Below, piece after piece: positions 164 to 58,217 of a DNA stretch of 64,000 nucleotides. The stretch's first letter is position 1. Each line of letters starts with the position of its first letter. The notes below the pieces were generated by a model that was given only the letters and a program-made list of their open reading frames with translations, was not told the origin of the DNA and did not search any database. The stretch spans positions 1 to 64,000 of the forward strand of contig REDH01000196.1 of NCBI GenBank assembly GCA_007693585.1. Reading direction: 5' to 3'. Source of the DNA: Deltaproteobacteria bacterium (GTDB lineage Bacteria; Myxococcota_A; Bradymonadia; REDH01). Both the position numbers and the translations under genes were made by a program.

Positions 164-343
164 GAAGAAGTCTCGTGGAGACGGGAAGAAGGGTGCGGCC
201 GTTCCGGGCCGGTGTCGAACCAGAGTACGTGTCCGTGAACGGTCGGGCAAGGGGCAGCACCGGTGGACACCTTCCGGGGAAGTCGCTAGGCGTGAATGCC
301 CGGAAGCGCTGTGTGCATCCCCCTCGCCCATCTCGGAGTCGTC

Positions 344-1504
344 ATGGTTCGTTCCCCGCACTTCCTCTCGGTGGGCCCTGTTGCCCTGCTCCTGCTGGCC
401 TCGTGCCTGGCCCTGGCGGGCTGTGGCGAGCTGGATGACCTGCTGGGTGGCGAGACGGAGACCGCGCCTGGGTCGCAGGCGCCTCCTCCGGGCGAGCAGA
501 CGTCCGGGGTCCCCACCACCGGCGGTCCGGGAGGAGGGGTGACGGACGGCCCCGGGACGGGTCCGGCACCCGAGTGCACGCGGGACACCGACTGTGCGGG
601 GGCGCTGGTCTGCCGGGAGGAGCGCTGTGTCGAGGCGGGGGATTCGCGCACCCCGGAGCAGCGCGAGGACGAGCGGCGCTGCCGCCTGGACTGCGAGCTG
701 GCGCAGGAGTGCGACGGAGAGCGTTTCTCGTCCACCTACACCTCCGTGGGCGCCTGCACGCAGCAGTGCACCCGGGACATCGACCAGGCGCGGCGGGATG
801 CGGAGCGGGGCTGCTTCAACGCCCAGTACGCGCGCCTGGGGTGCGTGGCGGAGCTCGACGGCTGCGCGGCTCTCGACGCGTACCTCGAAGGCCGCGCCGG
901 CGCGACCTGCGTCGACGAACGCATCGCCGCTGCCGCGGCCTGCGACCCCTTCGCCGCCTTCTGCGCCGAGGACTGCGCCCAGTACGCCACGTGCACTCCG
1001 GACGCGTTCTCCAACGACCACCCCTCGGAGTTCTCCTGCATGGAGTCCTGCATCGACAACCTCGTCGCGTTCGGCATGGAGACCACACCGCAGTGCTTCG
1101 ACTCGTCGTTCGAACTCTACGTCTGCACCGCTGCCCTGGACTGCTCGGGCTACGACGCGTTCACCGCCCGTCAGGGCGAGTACCCGTGCCGGGCCGAGGA
1201 CGAGCGGAGCGCGGACGCCTGCTTCGAGTGGGAGCTGTGCGTGCAGGAGTGTGGCCAGCTCGCCGCGTGCGACCCCGAGACCTTCGCGAGCTACCCGAGC
1301 GCCGCCGCCTGCGAGGACGACTGCGCGGCGGACCTCGAGGCGCTTCGCGAGGGAGTGGGCCCGGCCTGCTACTTCGCCGAGATGGCGCTCTTCGCCTGCG
1401 TGACGGCGCTGAGCTGTGGGGATCTCGACCGGTACTTCAACGACGAGGGCCCCGACTTCCCGTGCCGGGACGAGGTCGTCGAGGCCGAGGCATCCTGCGG
1501 CTGA
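344..1504 (+). CDS. Cys-rich lipoprotein with three ~90-residue repeats
   Basis: Predicted 386-residue secreted lipoprotein of unknown function. The start at 344 has a GGAG six bases upstream. A signal peptide ends in the lipobox LAGC (Cys27), so it is probably anchored in the outer membrane. After a Gly/Pro/Thr-rich linker comes one four-cysteine module of the C-x4-D-C type (about residues 77-95). The rest consists of three diverged repeats beginning near residues 112, 205 and 296. Each repeat has a C-x3-C-x5-C start, a second C-x3-C pair, and a final block with C-x5-6-C followed by an aromatic/Asp-rich segment. Even cysteine spacing implies disulfide bonding outside the cytoplasm. It is nearly convergent with the TonB-like gene (nine bases between stops). 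Confidence 0.85.
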   Translation: MVRSPHFLSVGPVALLLLASCLALAGCGELDDLLGGETETAPGSQAPPPGEQTSGVPTTGGPGGGVTDGPGTGPAPECTRDTDCAGALVCREERCVEAGDSRTPEQREDERRCRLDCELAQECDGERFSSTYTSVGACTQQCTRDIDQARRDAERGCFNAQYARLGCVAELDGCAALDAYLEGRAGATCVDERIAAAAACDPFAAFCAEDCAQYATCTPDAFSNDHPSEFSCMESCIDNLVAFGMETTPQCFDSSFELYVCTAALDCSGYDAFTARQGEYPCRAEDERSADACFEWELCVQECGQLAACDPETFASYPSAAACEDDCAADLEALREGVGPACYFAEMALFACVTALSCGDLDRYFNDEGPDFPCRDEVVEAEASCG

Positions 1505-7148: not shown

Positions 7149-8918
7149 GTGTTCGCCCTCCCCTCCCTGCCCGCAGGCCGCAGCCCCCTCGAGCGCGCCG
7201 ATCACCTGATCGCGATCGCCCTGCTGTTCGCCTCCGTGGCCCTGCTCCTCGCCACCGACGGCATGGGGTTCACCCGCGACGAGTCGTACTACTTCCACGC
7301 AGGGCGCGAATACGGCGGGTGGTTCATCGAACTGGCCGCGAACATCCGCGCCGGAACGCCACTCGAGAGCTTCCGGCAGGCCAGCATCGACCACCACTGG
7401 CGCTACAACCCCGAGCACCCGGTCATCGTCAAGACGCTCTTCGCGCTCTCCCGCATCCTCTTCGCCGACCTCCTCGGATGGCTCGACGAACCCACCGCCA
7501 TGAGACTGCCCGGCATGATCTTCGCCGGCGCGCTCGTCAGCCTCACCTTCCTGCTCGCCCGCGAAATGACCGGCGACCGCATCACCGCCACCACCGCCGC
7601 CGTCTCCCTGCTCCTGCTGCCCCGCGTCTTCTTCCACGCGCACATGGCCTGCTTCGACATCCCCATCACCACGATGTGGGTCGCGGTCGTCTACGCCTGG
7701 TGGCGATCCTTCGAGTCCGAACGCTGGGCCTGGGCCACCGGCGCGCTGTGGGGCATCGCCCTCGGCGTCAAGCTCAACGCCTTCTTCCTCCCGATCGTCC
7801 TCGGACTCCACCTCGTCACCACGCGCTGGCTCGCCTGGCGACGCGGCGCCCGGAACGCCCCCTTCCGCCCCCCCACCACCGTCGTCGCGATGGCGATCCT
7901 CGGCCCCCTCCTCTTCGTCGCCCTCTGGCCCCGGCACTGGTTCGACACCATCGCCAGGATTCGCTGGTACGTCGAGTTCCACCTCTTCCACGAACACTAC
8001 TACGTCGACTACTTCGGCCGACACTTCATCGAGCCCCCCTTCCCCGTCGAGTACCCCTTCGTGATGACCGTGGCGACCACGCCGCTCATCTGGCTCCTCG
8101 CCTTCGCCATCGGCACCATCGCCTGGCTGCGGCTTCGCATCGCCAGCCCACCCGCCACCCCGGACGAACCCGGCGACCACCCCATCCCCGCACAGCGTCC
8201 CGGCGACGTGGAACCCGAACGACGCATCGCCATCGACCGCGCCCCCGGCATCCTCCTCGCCCTCAACATCCTCATCCCCTTCCTCGTCATCGCCCGCCCG
8301 GAGACCCCCATCTTCGGCGGCATCAAGCACTGGATGCCCGCGCTCCCCTTCATGGCCATCGCCGTCGCCCACGGACTCCGCACCGTCGCCGCACCCCTGC
8401 GCCGACCCGACGGCTCCACCCACCCCCTCGCCCTCTCCACCGCCTGCCTCGCCCTCCTCGGACCCGTGGCCCTCGCCGCCTGGATGAGCCACCCCTTCGG
8501 CCTCGCCTGGTACGGCGAAGCCGTGGGCGGCGTCACCGGCGCCGCCGACCGCGGCGCCATGCGCAACTACTGGGGCTACACCTCGCGACAGGCACTCCCG
8601 TGGCTCAACGAACACGCCCCGCCGAACGCACGCGTCCACTTCCACCACACCACCGAGCTCGCCGTCCGCGAATACCGCGCCCTCGGCTGGCTCCGCGAGG
8701 ACATCCGAAGCGTCCGGAATGTCGACCACGCCGACATCGTGCTCTACCATCACCCCAAGGCCGTCGGCGCGCGCCTCAACGAACAGTTCGTCTGGCAGCG
8801 CTTCAACACCCTCTCCCCCGTTCACGTCATCTCCCTGCACGGCGTGCCCCTGCTGTCCGTCTACCAGACCCCCGAACGCCCGACCCCCCCAGCCCCCCCA
8901 CCCCGCGAACTGCCATGA
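7149..8918 (+). CDS. GT39-type membrane glycosyltransferase (ArnT/PMT-like)
   Basis: About 589 residues with a dozen or so hydrophobic helices. The first periplasmic loop carries the acidic pair in FTRDESYY (Asp44-Glu45), the catalytic-site pattern of the GT39/ArnT/PMT superfamily, which moves sugars from polyprenyl-phosphate donors onto lipids or proteins in the periplasm. Further family-like features are YNPEHP in the early loop and a soluble C-terminal portion. The acceptor and sugar are unknown. The start is uncertain: GTG 7149 keeps the first helix, while ATG 7263 would remove it. The frame stays open far upstream, but that part is antisense to the LpoA-like gene and is rejected. The stop overlaps the next gene's ATG by four bases. 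Confidence 0.85.
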   Translation: MFALPSLPAGRSPLERADHLIAIALLFASVALLLATDGMGFTRDESYYFHAGREYGGWFIELAANIRAGTPLESFRQASIDHHWRYNPEHPVIVKTLFALSRILFADLLGWLDEPTAMRLPGMIFAGALVSLTFLLAREMTGDRITATTAAVSLLLLPRVFFHAHMACFDIPITTMWVAVVYAWWRSFESERWAWATGALWGIALGVKLNAFFLPIVLGLHLVTTRWLAWRRGARNAPFRPPTTVVAMAILGPLLFVALWPRHWFDTIARIRWYVEFHLFHEHYYVDYFGRHFIEPPFPVEYPFVMTVATTPLIWLLAFAIGTIAWLRLRIASPPATPDEPGDHPIPAQRPGDVEPERRIAIDRAPGILLALNILIPFLVIARPETPIFGGIKHWMPALPFMAIAVAHGLRTVAAPLRRPDGSTHPLALSTACLALLGPVALAAWMSHPFGLAWYGEAVGGVTGAADRGAMRNYWGYTSRQALPWLNEHAPPNARVHFHHTTELAVREYRALGWLREDIRSVRNVDHADIVLYHHPKAVGARLNEQFVWQRFNTLSPVHVISLHGVPLLSVYQTPERPTPPAPPPRELP

Positions 8919-9547
8919 CCCGGCTCGCCCACGGGATCCTCTTCTCGCTCCTCCCGCTGCTCGCCCTCACCGCCACCGCCGGCGCGCAGGATCGCCACGA
9001 CGCCGCCCGACAGGCCTACCTGCAGGGCATCGAGGCCTACGACGCCGGCGCCTTCGAAGACGCCGCTCGCCTGCTCCGACAGGCCTACGCCCTCGACCCC
9101 GACCCCCGCCTCGCCTTCAACGTCGGCCGAGCCTACGAGCTCGCCGGAGAACACGCTCTCGCCCTCGAATTCTTCGCCCTCGCACGCGACTCCGCCCGAA
9201 ACACCGAACTCGCCGATGTCGCCACCGATGCCATCGACCGAGTCCAGCAGGCCCGCACCGCATCCGCAACCCCGACCGCGGACGAACCCTCACCCCCCAC
9301 CGCCACGCCCTCCGCCTCCGTCGGACCCCACGCCGAAGGCGCCCTATTCATCGTCCCCGACCGCGGCCTGCGCGCCGTGCTCGGCAACGCTCCACCCGCC
9401 GAAACCCCCCTCACCCGACTGCTCCCTCCAGGCACGCACCGCGTCGAGGTCCTCACCGGCGACGGTCGCGTCCGACGCTACGAAATCTCCGCCGAACCCG
9501 GCACCGTGATCCTCATCCGGCCCAGCCACGCCCTGCGCACCGAGTAG
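8915..9547 (+). CDS. Exported TPR protein with PEGA-like C-terminus
   Basis: 210 residues. A signal peptide (about 1-24, ending AGA/QD) precedes tetratricopeptide-like helices (about 28-100) with the repeat pattern A-x-Y-L-x2-G-x2-A-Y-D-A-G. A Pro/Thr/Ser-rich linker follows, and then a small beta domain (about 140-205) with PPGTHRVEV, resembling PEGA carbohydrate-binding-like domains. It overlaps the glycosyltransferase stop by four bases (ATGA), so the two are probably co-translated; a common role in surface glycosylation is an inference. Confidence 0.8.
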   Translation: MTRLAHGILFSLLPLLALTATAGAQDRHDAARQAYLQGIEAYDAGAFEDAARLLRQAYALDPDPRLAFNVGRAYELAGEHALALEFFALARDSARNTELADVATDAIDRVQQARTASATPTADEPSPPTATPSASVGPHAEGALFIVPDRGLRAVLGNAPPAETPLTRLLPPGTHRVEVLTGDGRVRRYEISAEPGTVILIRPSHALRTE

Positions 9548-9614
9548 ATCACCCGACGCCGAAGCCCGCGCGGCCACGCCGCCTCCCCACCAACGCGAAC
9601 GGAACCAGCAGCTT

Positions 9615-9644
9615 CTGGCATCCGGGTCGCAGGATCGATACACT
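9615..9644 (+). promoter_or_regulatory. Candidate sigma-70-type promoter for the Cys-rich lipoprotein
   Basis: A -35 like CTGGCA (9615-9620) and a -10 like TACACT (9639-9644) are separated by 18 bases, about 100 bases before the start at 9744. Pattern match only. Confidence 0.4.
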
Positions 9645-9743
9645 GGCGTGCGGCCGAACCGCGTCGCCACCCACCTCGTCCCACTCTCCGCACGCCCGCC
9701 ATGATTCGGCCAGCCCGAACGCGGGCGCCGACCAGGGCCAATC

Positions 9744-12557
9744 ATGGGCTACCCCGCACTCCCCGCACGCGCAGCGCTCGCCCTCGCCGCCTCACTGCTC
9801 CTTCTCGCCGGATGCAGCCGAAGCCCCCTCGGCGAAGCCTGCGACAACGACCGCTGGTGCACCGACGGCCTCGTCTGCATCGAAGGGCGCTGCGCCGAAG
9901 CCAACCCCTGCCAGTGGGACGACCAGTGCTTCGGCGACCGCACCTGCATCGACCGACGCTGCACCACGCCCTGCAGCCGCGACCGCGACTGCCTCCCCGG
10001 TGAACGATGCCTCGACGGCCTCTGCGCCCCCGATGATTCCAGCGCGCCCGGGACCTCCGCCGACGCCTCCGAGGTCCCCGACACCAGCCATGACTCCTCC
10101 GACCCACCGGATGTCACGGACCCCACCGGACCACCACCGCTGTGCACCAGCGACGACGACTGCCCCGAAGGATGGAGCTGCATGGACGGGGAATGCATCG
10201 ACCCGGGATCCACCGGGCCACCGCCGCTGTGCGAGAGCGACGACGAATGCCCCGACGGGTGGACCTGCGTGAACGGACAGTGCGCCGAACCCGGATCCAC
10301 CGGGCCACCGCCGCTGTGCGAGAGCGACGACGAATGCCCCGACGGGTGGACCTGCGTGAACGGACAGTGCGCCGAACCCGGATCCACCGGGCCACCGCCG
10401 CTGTGCGAGAGCGACGACGAATGCCCCGACGGATGGGCCTGCGTGAACGGACAGTGCATCGCACAGCCGCCACCCCAGTGCACCACAAGCAGCGACTGCC
10501 CCGATGGATGGCGCTGCCGCGACGGCCGATGCACCGAACCCGACCCGGTCGGATGCCGGAGCAGCGCGGACTGCGACGACGGGGAACGGTGCCGCGACGG
10601 GCTCTGCGTGCCGCCCCCGCCGCCGGAGTGTCGCGACGACAGCGACTGCGACGACGATGCGTTCTGCGATCCCTTCTCGCGTCGCTGCACCCCCCGCACG
10701 GGATGCGACTCCGATGCCGACTGCGCGGACGGTCGCCGCTGCGTGTCGGGCGAGTGCGTGGCGATCGGCGAGTGCACGAGCGACGCCGACTGCGATGACC
10801 CCCTGCAGTGCACGAACGGCTTCTGCCTGCTCCCGCCCGGATGCGCGGGGGACGAAGACTGCGCGCCCGGCGAGCGCTGTGACCTGGGCATCTGTCAGCC
10901 CGTCGAGTGCCGAACCGATGCGGACTGCGAAGAGGGGTGGACCTGCTTCGCCCAGGTGACGTGTGTTCCGCCAGTGCCCTGCCGGACCGATGCAGACTGC
11001 CCCGAACTCACCCAGTGCATCGATGGCCTGTGCGAGGTCGACCTGCGGTGCAACGCGGCGGGAGAGTGCCCCGAGGGCTACAGCTGCGATCCCGGTGGCA
11101 ACTGCTTTCCGGACAACCTCTGCCTGACGGACGTCGACTGCCCTGAAGGATTCGTCTGCACGTTCCGTGCCTGCGTGCCCGCCCCGGAGTGTCGCGCGAA
11201 CGCCGACTGCGGCCCCCACGAACGATGCGTCGCCGAGCGCTGCGAACCGGTGCTGGAGTGCGTCGAGGACGGGCAGTGTGCGGGCGGAGAGACGTGCATC
11301 GACAACCGGTGCGTCTTCGACGGTCAGTGCAGGACCGACGACGACTGTGCTCCCGGCGAACGGTGCGACGCGTTCCAGTGCGTCTTCGACGGTCAGTGCA
11401 GGACCGACGACGACTGTGCTCCCGGCGAACGGTGCGACGCGTTCCAGTGCGTCTTCGACGGTCAGTGCAGGACCGACGACGACTGTGCTCCCGGCGAACG
11501 GTGCGACGCGTTCCAGTGCGTCTTCGACGGTCAGTGCAGGACCGACGACGCATGCGCTCCGGGAGAGATCTGTACCGGCAACGTCTGCATCCCGGGGTGC
11601 CGGGACGACGACGGCTGCGAGGCCGGGCGAATCTGCACGGGCAACGTCTGTGTTCCGGGATGTCGGGACGACGGCGCCTGCGGCCCGGGAGAGATCTGTA
11701 CCGGCAACGTCTGCATCCCGGGGTGCCGGGACAACACGGGCTGCCCGGAGGGTGCGATCTGCCGGGGAACGACCTGCATTCCGGGCTGCCGCTCGGACGC
11801 GGAGTGCCGGCCCGGTGAGTCGTGCCAAAGTGGACGATGCGTCTTCACGGGCGAGTGCCGGCGGGACGCAGAGTGTGGACCCGGCGAGCGGTGCGAGAAC
11901 TTCACGTGCGTGTTCGACGGAGAGTGCAGGACGGATGCCGACTGCGGACCGGGCGCGGCGTGCGAGGACTTCCGCTGCGTGAGTGTTCCCGACTGCCAGG
12001 TGGATGGAGACTGCGGACCGGGTGAGCTGTGCGTGAACGGATCGTGCGTCTTCTCCGGGGAGTGCCGAACGGACGAGGAGTGCCTTCCGGACGAGCAGTG
12101 CGAGAACTTCGCGTGCGTGCCACGGGAGGTGGACGAGTGCCAGACCGACGGGGACTGCAACCGGGGCGAACGGTGCCTGGATGGGCAGTGCCTTCCGCAG
12201 GGCTCGTGCCTCGTGGACGGCGACTGCCCGTTCGGGGAGGTGTGCGACTCGGGTCGCTGCGAGGCATCGATCCCGTGCGTGTTCAACGAGGAGTGCGGCT
12301 TCGCCGGACTCTGCATCGACGGCATCTGCCGGTTCCAGGAGCCGCAGTGCTTCGAGGACGTCGACTGCGGCGGTGACGGCAACCTCTGCGTCTTCGGGTT
12401 CTGTGCCCAGACGCGTCGATGCTTCGCCAGCTTCCAGTGCGGTCCCGGCCGAGTGTGTCGCAGCGGCTTCTGTGCACCGTCGACCGCACAGTGCACGTCG
12501 AACGCGGAGTGCCCGGGGGCCGAGGTCTGCATCGGCGGAACCTGCAGCGCGCCCTGA
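9744..12557 (+). CDS. Giant Cys-rich lipoprotein with ~37 four-cysteine modules
   Basis: 937 residues. The signal peptide ends in lipobox LAGC (Cys24). Almost the whole mature protein is a chain of about 37 modules of the form C-x4-5-C-x5-6-C-x4-6-C with acidic residues between the first two cysteines (for example CRTDADC...C...C). A Ser/Asp/Pro-rich spacer lies near residues 95-130. Such Dickkopf/EGF-like disulfide knots occur in large numbers in myxobacterial surface proteins; their function is unknown, with adhesion or a stalk-like spacer possible. Two sets of modules are nearly identical at DNA level (87-bp and 69-bp tandem repeats), so copy number may vary. An AGGG lies about seven bases before the ATG. 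Confidence 0.9.
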   Translation: MGYPALPARAALALAASLLLLAGCSRSPLGEACDNDRWCTDGLVCIEGRCAEANPCQWDDQCFGDRTCIDRRCTTPCSRDRDCLPGERCLDGLCAPDDSSAPGTSADASEVPDTSHDSSDPPDVTDPTGPPPLCTSDDDCPEGWSCMDGECIDPGSTGPPPLCESDDECPDGWTCVNGQCAEPGSTGPPPLCESDDECPDGWTCVNGQCAEPGSTGPPPLCESDDECPDGWACVNGQCIAQPPPQCTTSSDCPDGWRCRDGRCTEPDPVGCRSSADCDDGERCRDGLCVPPPPPECRDDSDCDDDAFCDPFSRRCTPRTGCDSDADCADGRRCVSGECVAIGECTSDADCDDPLQCTNGFCLLPPGCAGDEDCAPGERCDLGICQPVECRTDADCEEGWTCFAQVTCVPPVPCRTDADCPELTQCIDGLCEVDLRCNAAGECPEGYSCDPGGNCFPDNLCLTDVDCPEGFVCTFRACVPAPECRANADCGPHERCVAERCEPVLECVEDGQCAGGETCIDNRCVFDGQCRTDDDCAPGERCDAFQCVFDGQCRTDDDCAPGERCDAFQCVFDGQCRTDDDCAPGERCDAFQCVFDGQCRTDDACAPGEICTGNVCIPGCRDDDGCEAGRICTGNVCVPGCRDDGACGPGEICTGNVCIPGCRDNTGCPEGAICRGTTCIPGCRSDAECRPGESCQSGRCVFTGECRRDAECGPGERCENFTCVFDGECRTDADCGPGAACEDFRCVSVPDCQVDGDCGPGELCVNGSCVFSGECRTDEECLPDEQCENFACVPREVDECQTDGDCNRGERCLDGQCLPQGSCLVDGDCPFGEVCDSGRCEASIPCVFNEECGFAGLCIDGICRFQEPQCFEDVDCGGDGNLCVFGFCAQTRRCFASFQCGPGRVCRSGFCAPSTAQCTSNAECPGAEVCIGGTCSAP
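10206..10457 (+). repeat. 87-bp tandem repeat, ~2.9 copies, inside the Cys-rich lipoprotein gene
   Basis: Unit starts are at 10206, 10293 and 10380 (each GGATCCACCGGG). Copies are almost identical; the third changes one residue (Thr to Ala) and diverges after 10457. A more diverged copy precedes them (10119-10205). Each unit encodes 29 residues: a GSTGPPPL linker plus one four-cysteine module. Confidence 0.9.
11313..11549 (+). repeat. 69-bp tandem repeat, ~3.4 copies, inside the Cys-rich lipoprotein gene
   Basis: Identical units start at 11313, 11382, 11451 and 11520 and encode VFDGQCRTDDDCAPGE plus RCDAFQC. The last copy diverges about 30 bases in. Perfect identity, including synonymous sites, indicates recent duplication. 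Confidence 0.92.
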
Positions 12558-12933: not shown

Positions 12934-13224
12934 TCAGGGCTCGTCCGTCAGGGCGTCGACCATCTCGCGCAGCTGCTTGCCGACCTTGAAGTGAATGGCC
13001 TGCTTGCTGTCCACAGGCACTTCCTCGCCCGTCTTCGGGTTGCGGCCGACGTACGCGCGGTGCTGCTTGAGGGAGAAGGAGCCGAATCCCCGGATCTCGA
13101 TGCGGTTTCCGCTCTCGAGCGAAGCAGCCAGGGCCTCGAAGATGCAATTGACGGCTTCTTCCGCTCGCTTGCGCGGAAGATCCTGGGACTGTGCGAGGCG
13201 CTCGATCAATTCACTTTTCGTCAT
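12934..13224 (-). CDS. ihfB: Integration host factor subunit beta (HU/IHF family)
   Basis: 96 residues. The N-terminus [12 protein letters not shown] is that of IHF beta rather than HU, followed by the family core [12 protein letters not shown] and the DNA-minor-groove arm [10 protein letters not shown] with the intercalating proline. It bends DNA as a dimer and supports recombination, replication and sigma-54 promoter looping; rpoN is encoded at 43505. The ATG at 13224 was chosen over a longer frame because family similarity begins exactly there. A well-formed promoter lies upstream. The alpha partner is not in the window, so a homodimeric HU-like role cannot be excluded. Confidence 0.93.
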
Positions 13225-13332
13225 CGCGTGCACCTGATGGATGAGGTCGATGTCCAGTGGAGTGTCTGGCCGGGCCGCGAGGTGCAGTGCACTCAAATTC
13301 AAGTATGCCGCACCGCGACGCAGCGGGGCGTC

Positions 13333-13635: not shown

Positions 13636-15711
13636 GTGAACATGTCGCGACCGTCGTGGATCATCGTGGTGTCCATTCTCCTTCTCGGGCTCCCCTGGTG
13701 GAGTGCCTGCAGTGACGACGACAACGCCGGTGCAGGGGATGGCGAGTGCCGCTTCGGCGAGGAGCTTCGGGACGGTCGCTGTGTCCGGGTGGGTGGAGGC
13801 GGCGGTGCCGTGGACAGCCGATCCGGGGTGCCCGGCTCGGGCCCCGGAGGCACGGTGACGGACCCCGGCACTCCGACGTCCACGGGGGTGCTCCCGGAGC
13901 TGTCGTGTGACGCGGGCGCGTCCTACTGCGTCAACCCGGGGCTGGCAGCGGTGTGCAACGCGTCGGGGGACGGACACGCCGAAGAGCGGCCCTGCTCGGA
14001 GACGGAGCGGTGCACGATGCGGGATGGCGTGGCCGTGTGCATCCTGGGCAGCCAGGACCGCTGCGACGAGCCCGGCGAGTTCGTGACCTGCTCGGGGCCG
14101 GCGCAATACGTGGCCTGCGGGGACAACGGCTTCGCGGACATGGACAACCTGATCCCGTGCCCGGCCGAGGAGCCCTTCTGCCGGACCGGAATGGGGTGCA
14201 CAGCGTCGATCTGCACCCCGGGCACGCTCCTGTGCGAAGGAAACCAGGTGCGGCGGTGCAACGAGGCGGGCGACGACACGGACTTCGTCGAGAACTGCTC
14301 GGCGGGCTGCGAGGGCAACACCTGCGTGGACCCCTGCTCGGACGACGGGAAGGGCTCCTACGTCGGGTGCGACTTCTACGCCCTCTACCTGGACAACGCC
14401 GAGGACAACGGGCGTCGGGACTGGGCCGTCACCGTCTCGAACGTGTCGCCGAATCCCGTCGAGATCGAGATCGTGGACGGCAACGGGGAGACGGCCGCAG
14501 CAGCGACCATCCCGTCCCGGCAACTCGAGACCTTCCGGCTGCCATCGCGGGCCGCGGGCCGGACGGAGATCCACAACGAAGCCTACCGGATCGTGTCCTC
14601 CGGTGCCGTGACCGTGCACCAGTTCAACCCCCTCGACAACGAAGGCGCCTTCTCCAACGACGCCTCCCTGCTGTTCCCGACCAACGCGATCGGGACGGAC
14701 TATCTCGTTCTCTCCTGGCCGGCCGTCGGGTCGCGCCGCGGATTCGTCACGATCATCGCCACCGAGGAAGAAGCCCCGACCGAGGTTCGCGTCCGCCCCT
14801 CCATCAACGTGGCCGCGGGGGGCGGCGTCCCCGCAATGCAGGCGAACCAGTGGACCACCGTCACGCTGCAGCGCGGGCAGGTGCTCAACCTGAACAGCGC
14901 GGCGGCCGACGCCGACTTCACCGGAACCGAGGTCCAGTCCGATCACCCGGTGGTGGTCTTCGCAGGCTCGGAAGCCACGACCGTTCCCCTGAACACCGCC
15001 TACGCCGACCACCTCGAGCAGCAGCTCACGCCCACCGACACCTGGGGCAGCGACTACATCATCGCCAAGTTCCGACCGCGCGGAAACGAACCCGACGTGT
15101 TCCGCGTCCTCGCCCTCGAGGACAACACCATCCTCATCACCTCCCCGGCGATCCCCAACGTGGACGGCCGGACCCTCCGGCGCGGAGAGTTCGTGCAGTT
15201 CGAGGAGCGACGCAACTTCGAGGTCCGCGGACGAAGCGGCGTCAGCGGAAACCCCGCCCCCATCTCCGTCGGTCAGTTCATGGTCGGATCCAACTTTGGC
15301 TGCACCCAGGGCGCGTTCGGACCCAGCTGCCCCAACCCGCGCCCGATCCCGGCCTCCTCCCGATGCGGCAACTCCGCGATCGGGGACCCCGCGTTCCTGC
15401 TCAACGTGCCCACCCGCCAGTTCCTGAGCGAGTACGTGTTCTACGTCCCGGCCCAGTACCACGAGAACTACATCTCGGTCGTCGCCCGAACCGGCACCGG
15501 GATCCAGCTCGACGGAAGCCCCATGGGCGCCCCGCCACAGCGCGTGGAGGGCACCCCGTTCGACGTCTTCCACATGCCCGTGCAGGCCGGCGTGCGCACC
15601 CTCACCGCCGACCGGGCCGTCGGCCTCTACGTGTACGGCTACGACTGCGACGTCTCCTACGCCTATCCCGGCGGCATGAACCTCGACGTCGACGCCGCCA
15701 GCAACTTCTGA
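13636..15711 (+). CDS. IgGFc-binding-domain lipoprotein, first of a tandem pair
   Basis: 691 residues. The signal peptide ends at Cys25 (WWSAC, a slightly atypical lipobox), followed by a Gly/Thr-rich spacer. A Cys-rich segment (about 90-235, with CDAGASYCVNPGL and PCSDDGKGSYVGCDF) precedes a long beta-rich domain (about 240-690) with the IgGFc-binding N-terminal pattern: VHQFNPL, NDASLLFPTNAIG, LVLSWP, ADHLEQQL and a C-terminal GLYVYGYDCDVSYAYPGGM. The family is found on animal mucus proteins and bacterial surface proteins; its ligand here is unknown. The GTG at 13636 lies six bases after an AGGG; ATG 13642 is the alternative. The next gene is a paralogue of identical length. Confidence 0.85.
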   Translation: MNMSRPSWIIVVSILLLGLPWWSACSDDDNAGAGDGECRFGEELRDGRCVRVGGGGGAVDSRSGVPGSGPGGTVTDPGTPTSTGVLPELSCDAGASYCVNPGLAAVCNASGDGHAEERPCSETERCTMRDGVAVCILGSQDRCDEPGEFVTCSGPAQYVACGDNGFADMDNLIPCPAEEPFCRTGMGCTASICTPGTLLCEGNQVRRCNEAGDDTDFVENCSAGCEGNTCVDPCSDDGKGSYVGCDFYALYLDNAEDNGRRDWAVTVSNVSPNPVEIEIVDGNGETAAAATIPSRQLETFRLPSRAAGRTEIHNEAYRIVSSGAVTVHQFNPLDNEGAFSNDASLLFPTNAIGTDYLVLSWPAVGSRRGFVTIIATEEEAPTEVRVRPSINVAAGGGVPAMQANQWTTVTLQRGQVLNLNSAAADADFTGTEVQSDHPVVVFAGSEATTVPLNTAYADHLEQQLTPTDTWGSDYIIAKFRPRGNEPDVFRVLALEDNTILITSPAIPNVDGRTLRRGEFVQFEERRNFEVRGRSGVSGNPAPISVGQFMVGSNFGCTQGAFGPSCPNPRPIPASSRCGNSAIGDPAFLLNVPTRQFLSEYVFYVPAQYHENYISVVARTGTGIQLDGSPMGAPPQRVEGTPFDVFHMPVQAGVRTLTADRAVGLYVYGYDCDVSYAYPGGMNLDVDAASNF

Positions 15712-15760: not shown

Positions 15761-17836
15761 ATGACCGACCACGCGAACGCCCGTCGAATCGCAACACTCC
15801 TGACCGGACTGCTCCTCACGGTCACCGGTTCCCTGGCCGGCTGCAGCGACGAATCCACCGGCGAGGCATCGCCCGAGTGCCGGTTCGGCTGGACCGCCGG
15901 ACCCGACGGAACCTGCATCCCTCCGCGCCCCCCCACCCCCACCATCCCCGGAACCAGCGACGAGCCACCCAGGAGCTCCGAAGGCGACACCTCCGACCCC
16001 CCCTCCCCATCCACGAGCAGCTCCGGGTCCGATCCCGACCTCAGCTGCGAGCCCGGTGCCTCCTACTGCGCCAACCCCGTCACCGCCGCTGTCTGCAACG
16101 AGACCGGCGATGGCCACGTGGAAGAGACCCCCTGCCCCGATGGCGAAGTCTGCCGCCAGCGCGACGCCGTCGCCATCTGCCTCCCCGGCAATGCGGACCG
16201 ATGCGAACCCGGCGACCTCGTTCACTGCGCCGGTCCCGCCAGCTTCGTCGCCTGCGGACAGGACGGCTTCCCGGAGGACGTCCCGTCCAATTGCCCCCCG
16301 GAGACCCCCTTCTGCCGCTCCGGCATGGGCTGCACCGACGCGATCTGCAACCCGGGCATCCGCTCGTGCGACGGCAACCAGGTCGTGGAATGCAGCCAGG
16401 ACGGCCAGTCCCAGACCCCGATCACCAACTGCCCCGCCGGCTGCGCCGCAGGCCAGTGCATCGACCCCTGCGACGATGACGGCAAGGGCTCCTACGTCGG
16501 CTGCGACTTCTTCGCCGTCTACCTCGACAACTCAGTGCCCGCCAACAACGTGCGCAGACCATGGGCCGTCACCGTCTCGAACACCAGCTCCACATCCTCC
16601 GTCGACATCAGCATCCTCGACGCCAACGGAGACGCCCTGCAGGAAAGCACCCTCGGCCCCTCCACACTCGAGACCTTCCAGCTCCCCCCCCGCGAAGCCA
16701 GCCGAAGCGAGATCCACAACGACTCCTTCCGGATCAGCGCCACCGGACCCATCACCGTCCACCAGTTCAACCCGCTCGACAACATCGGCGCCTTCTCCAA
16801 CGACGCCTCGCTGCTCTTCCCCAGCAACGCGCTCGGCCAGCGCTACCTCGTTCTCTCGTGGCCCCGAATCACGAACCGGACCGGCTTCGTCACCGTGATC
16901 GCCGCCGAAGACGACGGCCCCACGGAGGTGCGCATCCGCCCCACCGCCCCGGTCGAATCCGGAAGCGGCGTCCCCGCCATGGCCGTCGGAACCTGGAATA
17001 CCCTCACCCTCAACCCCGGCCAGGTCCTCAACCTCGTCACCCTGGCCACACAGGGCGACTTCACCGGCACCGAGATCGAGGCGGATCGTCGCATCTCCGT
17101 GTTCGCGGGCGCACAGTCCACCCAGGTGCCCATCGGCACCTCCTACGCCGACCATCTCGAACAGCAGCTCTTCCCGACCGAAATCTGGGGGGACAGCTAC
17201 GTCGCCGCCAAGTTCAGACCCCGGGGCAACGAGCCCGATGTCTACCGGGTCATGGCCCTGCACGATGGAACACGGATCGAGACCACGCCAAACATCCCCA
17301 ATGTACACGGACAGATGCTGGCGTCCGGGGCCTACCTGCAGTTCCAGGAGCGTCGCCACTTCGAGATTCGGGGCGTCAACGCCGTCGACGAGACCCCGGC
17401 ACCCATCCTCCTCGGCCAGTTCATGACGGGCTCCAACATGAGCGGTATCCCCAGCACGTGCCCGGCCGGCTGCGGCGGCCTGTTCAGCCCGTGCAGCACC
17501 GGGATCGGCGACCCGACCTACGTGCTCAACGTCCCGACCCGGCAGTTCCTCTCCGACTACGTCTTCTACGTGCCGGCCGACTACCGCGAGAACAACCTCT
17601 CCATCGTCGCCCGTCCCTCCACCACCATCACCCTCAACGGGCAGCCCCTGAGCGCGGCGCCGCAGGCCGTCGAGGGCACCCAGTGGCGCGTGTATCACGC
17701 CCAGGTCCCCGCCGGTGTGAACCGCCTCGGCGCGAGCGACCCGGTGGGCCTGTACGTCTACGGCTACGACTGCGACGTGTCCTACGGCTACCCGGGCGGG
17801 ATGAACCTGGACATCGACGCGATCGTGGACTTCTGA
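15761..17836 (+). CDS. IgGFc-binding-domain lipoprotein, second of a tandem pair
   Basis: 691 residues, paralogous over its full length to the preceding gene. The signal peptide ends in a good lipobox, LAGC (Cys28). After a Pro/Thr/Ser spacer come the same Cys-rich segment (CEPGASYCANPVT, DDDGKGSYVGCDF) and the same beta-rich IgGFc-type domain (VHQFNPLDNIGAFSNDASLL, ADHLEQQLFP, GLYVYGYDCDVSYGYPGGM). The N-terminal spacers have diverged most, as expected for an unstructured anchor. It is 49 bases downstream of its paralogue and probably in the same transcript. A duplicated pair may give two receptors or adhesins with different specificity; this is an inference. Confidence 0.85.
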   Translation: MTDHANARRIATLLTGLLLTVTGSLAGCSDESTGEASPECRFGWTAGPDGTCIPPRPPTPTIPGTSDEPPRSSEGDTSDPPSPSTSSSGSDPDLSCEPGASYCANPVTAAVCNETGDGHVEETPCPDGEVCRQRDAVAICLPGNADRCEPGDLVHCAGPASFVACGQDGFPEDVPSNCPPETPFCRSGMGCTDAICNPGIRSCDGNQVVECSQDGQSQTPITNCPAGCAAGQCIDPCDDDGKGSYVGCDFFAVYLDNSVPANNVRRPWAVTVSNTSSTSSVDISILDANGDALQESTLGPSTLETFQLPPREASRSEIHNDSFRISATGPITVHQFNPLDNIGAFSNDASLLFPSNALGQRYLVLSWPRITNRTGFVTVIAAEDDGPTEVRIRPTAPVESGSGVPAMAVGTWNTLTLNPGQVLNLVTLATQGDFTGTEIEADRRISVFAGAQSTQVPIGTSYADHLEQQLFPTEIWGDSYVAAKFRPRGNEPDVYRVMALHDGTRIETTPNIPNVHGQMLASGAYLQFQERRHFEIRGVNAVDETPAPILLGQFMTGSNMSGIPSTCPAGCGGLFSPCSTGIGDPTYVLNVPTRQFLSDYVFYVPADYRENNLSIVARPSTTITLNGQPLSAAPQAVEGTQWRVYHAQVPAGVNRLGASDPVGLYVYGYDCDVSYGYPGGMNLDIDAIVDF

Positions 17837-17852
17837 GCCACGGTTGCATGCC

Positions 17853-18683
17853 TCAGTTGAGCTCGACCACCACGCTGGTCATCAACCCCACCCCGTAGAG
17901 GCTGTGGCTGCCGTGGTTCTCGGTGAGTGCCTGAGCGTCCTCCCGCGTGACCAGACCGAAGTGCACGGCCTCGATGCGGTACATGCCGGCCGCCGGAAAC
18001 GCGCTGCCGGGCAACCGGGCCTCGTCCCGTGCCCCCGTGCGCAGCCGCTCGAGCGCGAGGGGCACATCGCCGGGGCCTTCCAGACCGAAGCTGGAGAAGG
18101 TCGGCTCCTCGGCACCGCCGAGACGGATGACCCGGAGCCACACGCCGTCGGCGGCGCCCCCGAGGACGATGTCCACGGGCTCTCCGGCGAAGAGCACGAG
18201 CTGCGTGGGAGCGATCTCGAGGGTGTGCTGTCGGGTGGGAGCGGCGATCGCGGCCTCGAATTCGCTCTCGCGGCCCTCCTCGTCGTTGTGCCGGAAGAAG
18301 AAGCGGGTCGTCACCCCCGGCGACACGACCCAGCCCCCGCGGTCGGAGCGGGTCTCGAAGACCCCGCCGAGACTGGTGCCGAAGAACGGGTGTCGCCCTT
18401 CCTCGATCCCGAGCTCGGGCAGGTAGACCCCGTCGAGCCAGGCCGCGTTGCCGCCGTCGATTCGTGCGGTCATCAGCTCAGCCTGGAAGGCGCCGTCACT
18501 GCGCTCGTGCACGAGCCCGATGGCGTGCACGGTCCCGCGCAGGTGCGTGGGGTCGCCTCCGCCCCCCCCATCGGTGGCCCGGAGCTCGGAGCACGAGGCG
18601 AGGGCGACGGACGCGACGAGGAGCAGGAGGGTCCGCGCGGCCCGGGCCGGGCGGTGCGGTCGAGGATCAGTCGAATTCGACAC
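17853..18683 (-). CDS. Hypothetical lipoprotein
   Basis: About 276 residues. The Arg-rich n-region and hydrophobic core end in LASC, a lipobox. A Gly-rich linker leads to a domain with regular beta-strand pattern (TVHAIGLVHER, GGVFETRSDRGGWVVSPGVTTRFFF, EIAPTQLVLFAGEPVDIVLGG) that I cannot assign. The GTG at 18683 overlaps the end of the double-FHA gene by 17 bases; a TTG at 18701 would extend it by six residues. The overlap suggests it is translated with that gene. It converges with the second IgGFc-type gene, with 16 bases between stops. Confidence 0.7.
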   Translation of the reverse strand: MSNSTDPRPHRPARAARTLLLLVASVALASCSELRATDGGGGGDPTHLRGTVHAIGLVHERSDGAFQAELMTARIDGGNAAWLDGVYLPELGIEEGRHPFFGTSLGGVFETRSDRGGWVVSPGVTTRFFFRHNDEEGRESEFEAAIAAPTRQHTLEIAPTQLVLFAGEPVDIVLGGAADGVWLRVIRLGGAEEPTFSSFGLEGPGDVPLALERLRTGARDEARLPGSAFPAAGMYRIEAVHFGLVTREDAQALTENHGSHSLYGVGLMTSVVVELN

Positions 18684-19665
18684 GGAAGAGCTGCTGTCCA
18701 AGGAAGATGAAGTCCCCGGGGCCGAGCTGCTTTCGCTCCCAGATCTTCACCCAGGTGCCGTTGGAGGACTGGAGGTCGACGAGGTAGTAGTGTCCGTCCT
18801 CGCGGGGGAAGACCTGCGCGTGCCGAGAGGACATGAACTTGTCCCGCGGGAAGATGACATCGCCCTTTTCGCGGCCGATGACGGCTCCTGCTTCGGGAAG
18901 GCAGTGGACGTTCTGCACGATTCCCCCGATGCCGATCTGGAGAAGCTTGTACAGTCCACCCGGGGGAGGCGAGCCCATGTAGCGGGTTCCATCGGACGAG
19001 CGTGCGCGGGGAGCGATCTCGTGTTCGAAGCGCTCGAAGCGCAGGACCTGACGACCCATGAGGAAGGTGTCGCCGGGGGTCAGCTTCACCTCCTCGCGCA
19101 GCTTCACGTAGGTTCCGTTGAGGCTGTAGAGGTCCTCGAGGAAGACGCGGTCCCCGTCGGTGGTCACCCGAGCATGCTTCGGGCTCAGGAAGGTGTCCGT
19201 GGGGAAGCGGACATCTCCGCCGCGGCCGACGATCGTGTCGGCGAACTCGAGCCGGATGTGCTGTCCGTCCTTGCCGTCCTCATTGATGGAGACGAGCGTG
19301 ACCCGAGCGGTGGCCGCACGGCGTTCGGCAGTGGGCTGGGAGCGGAGCGCTTCGGCGCGGGCGTGGGCGCCGCGCAGATCGGCCCCGCACTCCTTGCAGA
19401 AGCGAGCGTCGGCCGCGTTCTCGTGGCCGCAATGGGGACACGCCACCGCCGGCGGAGCGGTGGCCACCTGGGCCGAAGATGCGGCGGCCCCTCCCTGGGC
19501 CACACCCCGGAGCGCTCCCGTGGCCGGAGGGACCGGCAGCTCCCGCAGGAGATACGACGGACGCGCCGCCTCCTCGCCCCGGACCCGCAGGACATGGTCG
19601 TCTTCGATCTCCAGGGCCTTGAGAAGGGCCGTGGTCAGGTCGGGATCTGCTTGACTCGTGCTCAT
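18667..19665 (-). CDS. Zinc-ribbon protein with two FHA domains
   Basis: 332 residues. A zinc ribbon (CPHCG...FCKECG, Cys76/79/90/93) follows a variable N-terminus. Two forkhead-associated domains follow, at about residues 122-212 (GRG at 147-149, SPKH 161-164, LNG 182-184) and 237-332 (GRE 264-266, SSRHA 279-283, SSNGTW 300-305). FHA domains bind phosphothreonine peptides, so the protein is probably a reader for Ser/Thr kinases; the divergent neighbour at 20092 encodes such a kinase. The ATG at 19665 was chosen over a 18-residue longer form lacking conserved sequence. Cytoplasmic. Confidence 0.9.
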   Translation of the reverse strand: MSTSQADPDLTTALLKALEIEDDHVLRVRGEEAARPSYLLRELPVPPATGALRGVAQGGAAASSAQVATAPPAVACPHCGHENAADARFCKECGADLRGAHARAEALRSQPTAERRAATARVTLVSINEDGKDGQHIRLEFADTIVGRGGDVRFPTDTFLSPKHARVTTDGDRVFLEDLYSLNGTYVKLREEVKLTPGDTFLMGRQVLRFERFEHEIAPRARSSDGTRYMGSPPPGGLYKLLQIGIGGIVQNVHCLPEAGAVIGREKGDVIFPRDKFMSSRHAQVFPREDGHYYLVDLQSSNGTWVKIWERKQLGPGDFIFLGQQLFRVEFD

Positions 19666-20091
19666 GAGGTCACGCTTCGGAGCCGGGGGGCGGGAATCGG
19701 AAGCAGGCTGCACCTGCACCGGGTGCAGCGTACCACGGCTGCGCCCACGATGGCACTATTCCGCAACCGACGCCGGATCAATCCGGACGTTGAGGATCCG
19801 GTCCGACCTCCCGGTCCGCGTACCGACGATTCCTGCTCTTCCTCTTCGCCCGAATCGTGCTCGATCACGCCACAGATCCTGCGGTCGATCTCCGGGGCGC
19901 ACGGAACGCGAGCGCAGGGACGGTGCGCCGGCCACCCCCTACTTGTGGACCGTGACGCAGCGTGATACGGTCGGAAATTGTGCAGGAGGGACGGCGTTCG
20001 TGACGGCCCGCATCCCCGATGATGTTCAGACTTCCGCTGGTGCGCTGACAGCGATCCGAACTGTCCGCTCTCCCCCCATGGAGTGATTGGC
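19666..20091. other. Divergent regulatory region between the double-FHA gene and the Ser/Thr kinase gene
   Basis: No gene is seen. The region contains a short palindrome, CTGCACC-G-GGTGCAG (19714-19728), about 50 bases upstream of the FHA start, which might be an operator. It also contains a weak plus-strand promoter candidate, TTGTGG (19943-19948) and TACGGT (19966-19971) with a 17-base spacer. Confidence 0.35.
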
Positions 20092-30557: not shown

Positions 30558-30944
30558 GTGCTCCACGCCTTCCTCGCCATCCTCCTCCTCGGACTCCTGG
30601 CCCTCGCGCTGAACCACCTGCTCCATGGACTCGCGCCAGCACTCCCCGCGCCGACACGATGTCGAGATTGCTTCGACGACGACGAGCTCGTCCTCTATAC
30701 TCTGCCCACAACGTGCCCCGAGATCCCTCGGGAGCACGCCATTCTGCTCAAGCGCTGCGCCCTTCTGGCCGCTGCGCTGCGACATGACGCCCACCAGCGG
30801 CCGGAGGCCATCGAACTGCGCCGGCGCATTCTCCGCACGGCCAGCGCGCTCCCCCATGACCACCGGTCCCGCGAACCCCTCGCCCGCCTCGCGGCCAGGG
30901 CAGTCCGTCTCTCCCATGCACCGCACATCGAGGAGTCCACGTGA
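30558..30944 (+). CDS. Small membrane-anchored hypothetical protein
   Basis: 128 residues. A strongly hydrophobic N-terminal helix (about 3-20) is followed by a Cys pair (CRDC, 35-38), an acidic patch and an Arg/Leu/Ala-rich helical region. No family is recognised. The GTG start has no clear ribosome site, but its stop overlaps the next start as GTGA at 30941-30944, which supports a real, translationally coupled gene. Confidence 0.6.
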   Translation: MLHAFLAILLLGLLALALNHLLHGLAPALPAPTRCRDCFDDDELVLYTLPTTCPEIPREHAILLKRCALLAAALRHDAHQRPEAIELRRRILRTASALPHDHRSREPLARLAARAVRLSHAPHIEEST

Positions 30945-56222: not shown

Positions 56223-56306
56223 ACCCGCACAACTTGACCCTGACGTCCGGGCGTCGCTAGCTGTCATTCGGCGAGCCGAACGAACCACTTCAGGATGGAG
56301 GAGGCC

Positions 56307-58217
56307 ATGGCGACCGGATGGAGAGGGATGCACACACTGGGCGTGATGGGCCTCCTGGCCACGACGGTGTTCGGGGGCACGGCGTCCGCGGGCGAGCAGG
56401 CAGGAGAGCCCGCATGGGGGGTGGAGGGTGCGCCCACGTCGACCGGGGTTTCCGGGCTGAACCGGGTTCCCACGGCCACCGGTATCGACGCCGGTCAGGT
56501 CGCGTTCGGCGTCCACGGCAGTTTCTTCCGGGGCTCGGACGCCGTGCGCCGGGGGGACGAGACGCGCCGGAACACCGGATCCTTCACGCTGAGCATTCGC
56601 CCCCTCGAGGAGCTCGAGGTCTTCGCCTCGCTCTCCTCCCGCGCCGTGCGCAACAGCTTCGCCAACCCCGAGCTGATGCAGAGCACGGGCAACCTCGGCC
56701 TGGGATCCCGGGGAGGAGTCGAGGTGTTCGACGGGCTGCACGTGGGCGGAATGCTCGCCTTCGACTTCCCGGCGGGTGCGGAGAGCGTGGGCATCGCCTT
56801 CGACAGCTCGACCATCACGCTGCTCGCGATGGGCACGGCGGACCTGCGCACCCTCGTGGACGAGACCGTTCCCGTCCGGGCTCACCTCGCCACCGGGCCC
56901 GTGATCGACAACACGAGGAACCTGTTCGCGCAGGAGCTCACGCGCCCGGAGCGGTTCGGACAGGACGTCACCGCCTACAGCCGCTGGCGACTCGGCCTCG
57001 GCGTCGACGCGCCGCTGCCCTGGGTCACACCGTACGTCGAGTGGGTGCTCGACATTCCGATCAACCCGCCCTGCTCCAACACCCTCACGGTTCGGTGCGT
57101 GGGAGACAGCGGCTTCGCCGCCTTCCCCTCGTTCGTGACCCTCGGGGCCCGGGGCACGCCCATGGTGGAGGGTCTCGTGCTCCACACCGGGGTCGAGCTG
57201 GGCATGACCACCAACGAGTCCCAGGGCACCCCGGCGATTCCGGCATGGAACTGGATCTTCGGTGCATCGTGGGCCTTTGACGCCATCGGCCCGGCCGCGT
57301 CGCGCGAGCGCGGAGCGCCCACGGAGCGCGCTTCGCGCGGCGCCGAGTTGGCCTCCGTGTCCGGGCGCGTGGTGGACAGCCATACCGGCGAGTCCCTCGC
57401 CGGGGTGCGCGTCCGCTGGGCGGATCAGTCGTGGTCGGACCAGGTCGTCGATGACGCGGGGCGGTTCCTCTCGGCGCCGGTTCTCGTCGGCACGGAGGCG
57501 GCCATCGAGTTCTCGCGGGAGGGCTACGAGACGCGCACCGAGCGGTTCCGTGTGCCCGCCGAGGGGCTGGCCCTCGACATCGCGATGGACGAAGCCATCG
57601 AAGGTGCGCGCTTCGCGGGCACGGTGACGCTCGAGCAGGGCACGGCCGAGGCCGCACGCCTTCACGCCGTGCGGCCGGGCGAGCACGAGGAGATCGCCGT
57701 CACCGCCGACGGGCACTTCGAGGCCGACCTCGAGCCGGGCACGTGGCTGCTGTACGTGACCGCGCCCGGACACCGGACGGTCCGTCAGCGTCAGCCCCTC
57801 GAGGCCGGTCGACAGGAGGCCGCATTCGATCTCCCGCTGCTCGAGCCGGGAGAGCCGCGCCTCCTCCCCGACCGTCTCCTGTTCGACGACCCGATCGACG
57901 AGGTCGTGTTCGACGGAGAGTCCCTCGATCCCGGCTCCATGGACGCCATCGCACGGATCGCGACCCTCCTGGACGCCACACGGGGGCTTCGACTCCAGGT
58001 GCGCACCCACACCGACGACAGGGAGGACGAAGAAGAGGAGCGGCGACTGACCGAAGCGCGCGCGCAGGCCGTCCTCGACGCATTGCTCGCAGCCGGGGTC
58101 CAGGAGGGCCGCGTGACCTCCGAGGCGGTGGGTGCAGCCGAGCCGCTCGTTCCGAACCTCAACGAGCGCAACCGTGCCCGCAACAACCGGGTGGAGTTCG
58201 TCGTCATCGGCCCCTGA
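56307..58217 (+). CDS. OmpA-family outer-membrane protein with carboxypeptidase-regulatory-like domain
   Basis: 636 residues. Signal peptide with ASA/GE cleavage (after residue 28). A barrel-like region (about 45-325) of alternating strands is followed by Ig-like carboxypeptidase-regulatory repeats (about 345-490; SGRVVDSHTGESLAGVRV and FAGTVTLEQG) and a C-terminal OmpA/Pal-type peptidoglycan-binding domain (about 505-636). The latter has VRTHTDDREDEEEERRLTEARA and ends LNERNRARNNRVEFVV, giving the NxxL...D...R-type diaminopimelate site. It links the outer membrane to the cell wall. GGAGGAGG lies directly before the ATG at 56307 and decides this start over ATG 56295. Confidence 0.87.
   Translation: MATGWRGMHTLGVMGLLATTVFGGTASAGEQAGEPAWGVEGAPTSTGVSGLNRVPTATGIDAGQVAFGVHGSFFRGSDAVRRGDETRRNTGSFTLSIRPLEELEVFASLSSRAVRNSFANPELMQSTGNLGLGSRGGVEVFDGLHVGGMLAFDFPAGAESVGIAFDSSTITLLAMGTADLRTLVDETVPVRAHLATGPVIDNTRNLFAQELTRPERFGQDVTAYSRWRLGLGVDAPLPWVTPYVEWVLDIPINPPCSNTLTVRCVGDSGFAAFPSFVTLGARGTPMVEGLVLHTGVELGMTTNESQGTPAIPAWNWIFGASWAFDAIGPAASRERGAPTERASRGAELASVSGRVVDSHTGESLAGVRVRWADQSWSDQVVDDAGRFLSAPVLVGTEAAIEFSREGYETRTERFRVPAEGLALDIAMDEAIEGARFAGTVTLEQGTAEAARLHAVRPGEHEEIAVTADGHFEADLEPGTWLLYVTAPGHRTVRQRQPLEAGRQEAAFDLPLLEPGEPRLLPDRLLFDDPIDEVVFDGESLDPGSMDAIARIATLLDATRGLRLQVRTHTDDREDEEEERRLTEARAQAVLDALLAAGVQEGRVTSEAVGAAEPLVPNLNERNRARNNRVEFVVIGP

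Follow-up and report, generated by a model that had tools for sequence, protein, structure and literature searches.

An all-module, four-cysteine lipoprotein of Bradymonadia and its likely OmpA-domain partner

In the accessible part of the 2012 paper on TraA of Myxococcus, which defined the repeat family TIGR04201 (Myxo_Cys_RPT), the cysteine repeats of TraA are proposed to form a rigid stalk, and TraA is described as acting with TraB, a protein with an OmpA-like domain (PMC3325183). A literature search on the names and accessions of TIGR04201 and of the Pfam family DUF7107 (PF23416) returned nothing beyond that paper. Two other described systems bear a likeness to the protein reported here, namely Dumpy of Drosophila, a huge matrix protein in which, according to the available portion of its description, DPY modules are interspersed with EGF modules (PMC2930355), and Min-23, introduced in the part of the source at hand as a two-disulfide peptide with the cystine-stabilised beta-sheet motif (PMC2659701). 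Here we describe a protein encoded at 9744..12557 (+ strand) of a 64,000-nucleotide stretch of contig REDH01000196.1, hereafter the window, from a member of the class Bradymonadia. It is a lipoprotein made almost wholly of four-cysteine modules, it belongs to a family that is spread through the class, and in part of that family an OmpA-domain gene lies next to the array, an arrangement that may point to an anchored tether or stalk.

First, the open reading frame (ORF) starts with ATG and encodes 937 residues, 149 of which are cysteines (15.9%), and the GC content at its three codon positions (0.65/0.60/0.84, in a window of 69% GC) fits the coding frame. Its signal peptide with the lipobox LLAG-C24 (9744..9815, + strand) marks the product as a bacterial lipoprotein, the N-terminal signal peptide ending in MGYPALPARAALALAASLLLLAG-C24 as judged by a regular expression rather than a trained predictor, and the mature N-terminus, C-S-R-S, follows the family motif C-[GS]-[RK]-[ST]. 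Apart from the lipobox Cys24, the remaining 148 cysteines form exactly 37 consecutive four-cysteine modules with none to spare. The strict spacing C-x5-C-x5-C-x4-C is kept in 33 of the 37, while 2000 shuffles of the mature protein gave this motif 0.041 times on average and twice at most. Modules 1-3 (aa 33-94; 9840..10025, + strand) are parted by a 39-residue linker rich in D, S, P and T (aa 95-133; 10026..10142, + strand) from modules 4-37 (aa 134-934; 10143..12545, + strand), which have four cysteines each and the last of which ends three residues before the stop, with no further domain. Modules 5 and 6 (87-base units; 10230..10403, + strand) are identical in DNA sequence, as are modules 20, 21 and 22 (69-base units; 11328..11534, + strand), and these are recent tandem copies. 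The original prediction of this gene, made from the DNA letters alone, counted about 37 four-cysteine modules and roughly 150 cysteines in a 937-residue lipoprotein, and that count is confirmed; its picture of a regular array holds for the spacing but not for uniformity, given the linker after module 3 and the tandem copies.

The repeat itself is ordinary, and what is unusual is a protein that consists only of it. The array protein matches DUF7107 with 179.8 bits (cut-off 24.6) over 28 stretches and TIGR04201 with 116.1 bits (cut-off 25) over 18, and it is built of the same four-cysteine repeat as the TIGR04201/DUF7107 proteins of Myxococcota. It also passes the cut-offs for Dickkopf_N (PF04706; 74.8 bits against 25) and EB (26.3 bits against 24.3), overlapping cysteine-rich models that fall on the same modules; the Pfam scan of the protein found no other Dickkopf domain. 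The four-cysteine module is present in all 38 Bradymonadia genomes searched, and DUF7107 occurs in 84 of the 140 genomes of a phylum sample, including, among the matches listed, all 27 members of the class. In contrast to other TIGR04201/DUF7107 proteins, the window protein is nearly all repeat, comprising a lipid anchor, 37 modules and one linker.

Second, this architecture defines a family within Bradymonadia. In what follows, G denotes a genome, L an array locus and f a family within the class, G000 being the window's own genome (4.97 Mb in 223 contigs). Families f1, f2, f5 and f6 of the class, which includes predators, contain pure arrays with 31 to 79 modules, in keeping with the suggestion that module-array proteins be sought in related predatory bacteria; the largest has 79 modules and 334 cysteines. 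Because such arrays are found in relatives, the description of the window protein as extreme for a bacterium loses much of its force within the class. The motif C-[GS]-[RK]-[ST] at the lipid cysteine is present in 19 of 27 lipobox arrays and in 1 of 191 other lipobox ORFs from the same loci, with related genomes each counted separately; among the eight misses, L100 and L204 are wrong lipobox calls, their sequences reading CGRSSLG and CGRSSLT. The arrays of G001, G003, G004 and G005 are without the motif and were grouped by C-terminal likeness and because L103 is collinear with the window array (rho 0.69, 5/300 shuffles), and contig ends truncate those of G001, G005, G028 and G034. Across genera, the f5 pairs tested have their modules in collinear order (rho 0.83 to 1.00), and so do the window array and L100, which belongs to its family (11 pairs, rho 0.79, 0/300 shuffles).

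The window's own genome carries a second array, L088 (contig C60 of G000, 8339-12025, - strand), with 38 modules and different N- and C-termini. We set it apart from the window array, with which it is not significantly collinear (rho 0.26, 76/300); it is closer to L101 (rho 0.65) and L125 (0.53). A tblastn search of genome contigs with the window array found no relative. The cysteine-module proteins of f3 genomes are of another build, as in L189 and L193, which have 25 modules in 1154 and 1162 aa together with other segments. A 26,329-aa open frame among the search rows for G008 was not accepted as a protein, as the stretch includes 2000 N.

Third, part of the family has a likely partner. All ten motif-bearing f2/f6 arrays with upstream sequence are directly preceded, on the same strand, by an OmpA-domain gene, a count that leaves out the f2 array L120, which starts at a contig edge, and that includes G033, where a contig end leaves a 149-aa piece of the partner. 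Partner and array ORFs overlap by 4 bases in eight of the ten (in two of them once the lipobox start is taken), the other two spacings being -35 and +67. Pfam scans of four f2/f6 partners gave OmpA in 4/4, PEGA in 3/4 and CarboxypepD_reg in 4/4 (one below cut-off). A homologue of this partner is encoded in the window at 56295..58217 (+ strand), with 29% identity over query residues 104-567 as well as an OmpA match. Relatives of the partner at E below 1e-25, a threshold chosen after the rows had been seen, are found in 21 genomes, the own genome included, and three further genomes (G008, G033 and G035) have an adjacent partner gene. Across the 38 genomes, 24 have both array and OmpA-type partner, four have the array only (all four in 350 or more contigs), ten have neither and none has the partner only, where array presence was taken from search rows and fetched loci rather than full gene calls and G023 was scored from search rows only. 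This co-occurrence gives a Fisher P of 2e-6, calculated over genomes that are not independent; the counts by genus are 17, 3 and 5. As a separate observation, eight f2/f6 arrays (L114, L115, L118, L120, L121, L122, L126 and L127) contain an insert of about 120-140 residues with a shared pattern towards the C-terminal end, perhaps a beta-sandwich domain, and L203-L205 have an insert of about 120-140 residues as judged by gap size only.

The modules themselves are predicted to share a mini-fold. AlphaFold models of modules 27-31 (mean pLDDT 96.4, pTM 0.60; 51 aligned segments, kept from 55 rows after four out-of-register rows were dropped) and of modules 28-37 (mean pLDDT 84.8, pTM 0.37; 18 of 30 ten-module segments used) give the same elements, a three-residue helical turn and a hairpin in each module, except that the last module in each model shows single bridge residues only and no full hairpin. 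Structure prediction, proposed with the original prediction as a check, returned a confident fold for each module in both the five- and the ten-module model; the lower pTM of the latter may reflect its thinner alignment as well as flexibility. In Foldseek searches no row was significant: the top row was the N-terminus of Dkk4 (E 0.19), the squash inhibitor EETI-II gave a local match of 22 columns at 0.6 A (E 5.3) and the DPY structure 1oig of Dumpy one of 20 columns at 1.3 A, 40% identical in sequence (E 4.9). VIA-align of the module model found nothing at Z >= 2 and is uninformative for DPY, whose chain falls below the length it needs. No PDB entry matched the whole array protein in a phmmer search at E up to 0.01, and the best PDB profile match, Nab2 (E 0.001), was judged a mere match of cysteine spacing.

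Likeness to DPY extends to sequence. The DPY peptide has a spacing identical to the C-x5-C-x5-C-x4-C module and similar residues (profile E 0.031), and with its cysteines fixed it scores 13.0 bits against the module profile, compared with a mean of 10.7 for real modules and -14.6 for shuffles; 2 of 100,000 shuffles reached 13.0 bits, a value that flatters the match because the peptide came from a database search. Pfam Dumpy_DPY (PF21164) matched 36 of the 51 segments at E up to 1 (best 1.2e-11), and three of ten relative segments scanned singly exceeded its cut-off of 27 bits (37.5, 36.8 and 28.3 bits). On whole arrays L108 scored 20.4 bits and three others were unmatched at E up to 0.01. Of the 51 segments, all matched DUF7107 and 41 matched DUF5885 at E up to 1. 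The bacterial arrays share with the DPY modules of Dumpy their spacing, similar residues and a similar predicted fold, but they consist of modules alone, whereas Dumpy intersperses DPY with EGF; no tie of DPY modules to bacteria appeared in the titles and abstract openings of the literature matches listed. The cystine-stabilised beta-sheet fold is a hairpin that carries two disulfides, with pairing 1-3 and 2-4. With its predicted hairpin and its local match to EETI-II, the array module may resemble this core, known from Min-23 and the squash inhibitors, with the difference that Min-23 and the squash inhibitors are stand-alone peptides, the latter with three disulfides, and the modules here are strung in tandem in a lipoprotein.

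We believe, with a confidence that stands at about even, that the window protein is an outer-membrane lipoprotein whose string of 37 mini-modules serves as a tether or stalk with an OmpA-domain anchor. Each module would comprise a short helix turn and a hairpin held by its four cysteines, presumably oxidised and with the expected pairing 1-3 and 2-4, and the modules would fold independently along the string. A lipid-bearing cysteine followed by serine fits outer-membrane sorting under the E. coli rule; the lipid and an OmpA-domain partner in the outer membrane, if the two proteins do associate, would anchor the base. From there the string, long and acidic, would extend as a tether or stalk, most probably at the cell surface and perhaps in contact with other cells or prey, and array length would shift by tandem duplication of whole modules. 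It is the combination of beads of about 18 residues, mostly short linkers, the OmpA partner of the relatives and no recognised catalytic domain that leads us to a tether or stalk. For the cysteines to be oxidised the organism would need a strong periplasmic disulfide machinery, as was foreseen, and a candidate is indeed encoded in its genome, where the one VKOR match is fused to a DsbA-type domain (402 aa). The Pfam model for DsbB found no match in 19 genomes and was positive in six control genomes including E. coli. When the VKOR-DsbA fusion was searched (E up to 10) against the proteins of eight relatives, only its DsbA-type half was matched, many times.

The closest working analogy is TraA/TraB, the outer-membrane exchange pair of Myxococcus, in which an envelope protein with cysteine-rich repeats and an OmpA-domain partner are, going by the part of the source available, encoded side by side as in the f2/f6 relatives (PMC3325183). 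Since a stalk was proposed there for the TIGR04201-type repeats in 2012, the idea of a stalk in the original prediction had already been published for a relative; it remains plausible for the window protein. The analogy is one of logic and not of membership, which fails on the three features tested: the TraA model scores 19.4 bits on the window protein (cut-off 750), and Pfam/NCBIfam gave no match there to a PA14-like domain or to a MYXO-CTERM tag, in place of which the array has a lipobox. The TraB model gives 34.5 to 75.9 bits on the four f2/f6 partners scanned (cut-off 700), through the OmpA domain only. Gene order also differs from TraAB, as the OmpA gene comes first in f2/f6 and is not adjacent in the window.

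Several observations weigh against this picture of an anchored string of DPY-like, disulfide-held beads. The f2 arrays L119 and L124, which are without the motif, are also without an OmpA-domain neighbour, no OmpA-type gene is beside the array in the f1 and f5 loci examined, and the partner homologue of the window lies 44 kb from the array and is only 29% identical to the f2 copy. Co-occurrence tracks phylogeny, as eight of the ten genomes with neither gene belong to f3. The N-terminal region of the partners has no Pfam match, which leaves a barrel there a guess. By Pfam, six of the 19 genomes (G001, G003, G004, G005, G010 and G013) have neither VKOR nor DsbB, and all six carry arrays or array fragments, that of the single-contig genome G010 having 31 modules; what these six do show is a large number of DsbA-like matches. 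The pTM values of both models give no support for a rigid rod such as the original prediction envisaged. The five-module segment of the window scores 12.1 bits on DPY, below the cut-off, DPY is not among the Pfam matches of the whole window protein, and among the 51 segments EB (50), Dickkopf_N (46) and WAP (37) were matched at least as often as DPY (36). Finally, collinearity of the window array with two f5 arrays falls short of significance (L108, rho 0.45, 37/300; L123, rho -0.18), and its lineage has probably reshuffled its modules.

Among the alternatives, surface recognition survives best, although we hold it to be unlikely. The modules would then bind prey or kin, as in the adhesin of the original prediction, and differences in their sequence would confer specificity rather than form an inert spacer. 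That individual f5 modules stay recognisable, and in the same order, from genus to genus in the pairs tested goes beyond what a spacer needs, and bradymonads, described as predators in the available part of PMC7460792, attach to their prey, in that account by type IV pili. Scans with Pfam and NCBIfam nevertheless found no known adhesin or other binding domain, and the identical tandem modules of the window suggest a length that is free to vary. An improbable variant of the anchored string would place it in the periplasm, the lipid facing inward from the outer membrane and the array linking or spanning the cell wall with its OmpA partner. Surface exposure is not proven by sequence, and the OmpA domain found in every scanned partner, a domain of the cell-wall binding type, would suit such a spacer, but 37 to 79 extended modules, at an estimated 1.5-2 nm each, would exceed the width of the periplasm.

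The composition of the protein (16% Cys, 20% D+E) could also be read as that of a sink that binds metals or buffers oxidants. We give this little credence in view of the fixed x5/x5/x4 spacing, the absence of any CxxC pair throughout the protein, the confident predicted hairpin fold with its disulfide-rich local matches and the VKOR-DsbA fusion in the genome. Equally hard to credit is a polyvalent protease inhibitor or decoy with squash- or WAP-like modules, directed against own or rivals' proteases; the EETI-II match and the Pfam matches to Squash (9/51 segments) and WAP (37/51) at E up to 1 point that way but are weak, and the squash inhibitory loop lies outside the shared two-disulfide core. 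There is a negligible chance that the array is a repeat expansion without a function under selection, for which the identical tandem modules, as a sign of active duplication, would speak: the frame is open, its cysteines are strictly retained, neighbours and the motif at the N-terminus are shared, and four families of the class contain relatives.

Turning to the neighbourhood, the window array has a convergent neighbour encoding an HU-type DNA-binding protein (12934..13302, - strand) and, further on, a gene for a protein with a zinc ribbon and two FHA domains (18667..19719, - strand). Both are common to the same 9 of 29 array loci, the window included, which belong to f1 and f5 but not to every member of them. 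That the f2/f6 arrays occupy the same locus as the HU-linked arrays was rejected, the two being linked only by the N-terminal motif, architecture and weak collinearity (L122 with the window, rho 0.53, 7/300; L122 with L108, rho -0.28, 254/300). A search with the FHA neighbour gave 23 loci, 9 with an array in range and 14 without, several of them in the same genomes as the G loci; they include Lujinxingia vulgaris TMQ2, of a genus that taxonomy places in Bradymonadales. In this cultivated species, contig NZ_VOSL01000036.1 has an array of 46 modules. The organism of the window may itself be predatory.

The array protein has no lysine among its 937 residues and is acidic, with 186 D+E (20%) against 61 R. 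In a hand-picked sample of 14 of the 28 listed ORFs of the window, eight exported-type ORFs are nearly free of lysine at 0 to 0.39% (mean 0.12; 296-1504, 9744-12557, 13636-15711, 15761-17836, 17853-18701, 30941-31705, 56295-58217 and 62433-63224), and six cytoplasmic-type ORFs have 1.9 to 6.0% (mean 3.9); some unclassified ORFs of the window are also low in lysine. Low lysine in the exported-type proteins may be a salt adaptation. Two further cysteine-rich lipoprotein-type ORFs have other spacings, one at 30941-31705 (+ strand; 254 aa, 37 Cys, 14.6%) and one at 296-1504 (+ strand; 402 aa, 37 Cys), the second of which matches Dumpy_DPY weakly (E 0.039). A tandem pair of 691-aa IgGFc_binding proteins (13636-15711 and 15761-17836, + strand; E 8e-69 and 2e-66) has in both copies an N-terminal cysteine after a hydrophobic stretch.

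Finally, the repeat was already known, and what is new is its mini-fold link, the pure-array family with its motif and the likely OmpA-domain partner. Our analysis turns DUF7107, a named repeat that the literature search left uncharacterised, into a testable pair of an all-module lipoprotein and an OmpA-domain protein, which occurs in different families of a class with predatory members, and it links a bacterial repeat to the mini-folds of animal DPY modules and squash inhibitors. Going further, one may speculate that the array, together with its partner, serves predatory Bradymonadia as a second contact machine, independent of TraAB, in the shape of a disulfide fibre that is measured out in modules, has beads of the type found in the tension-bearing animal protein Dumpy, is anchored through the outer membrane and holds or senses prey or kin at a set distance, although we doubt that all of this will hold. 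The natural series of 31 to 79 modules could be used to test whether the reach of cell contact is determined by how many modules an array has.

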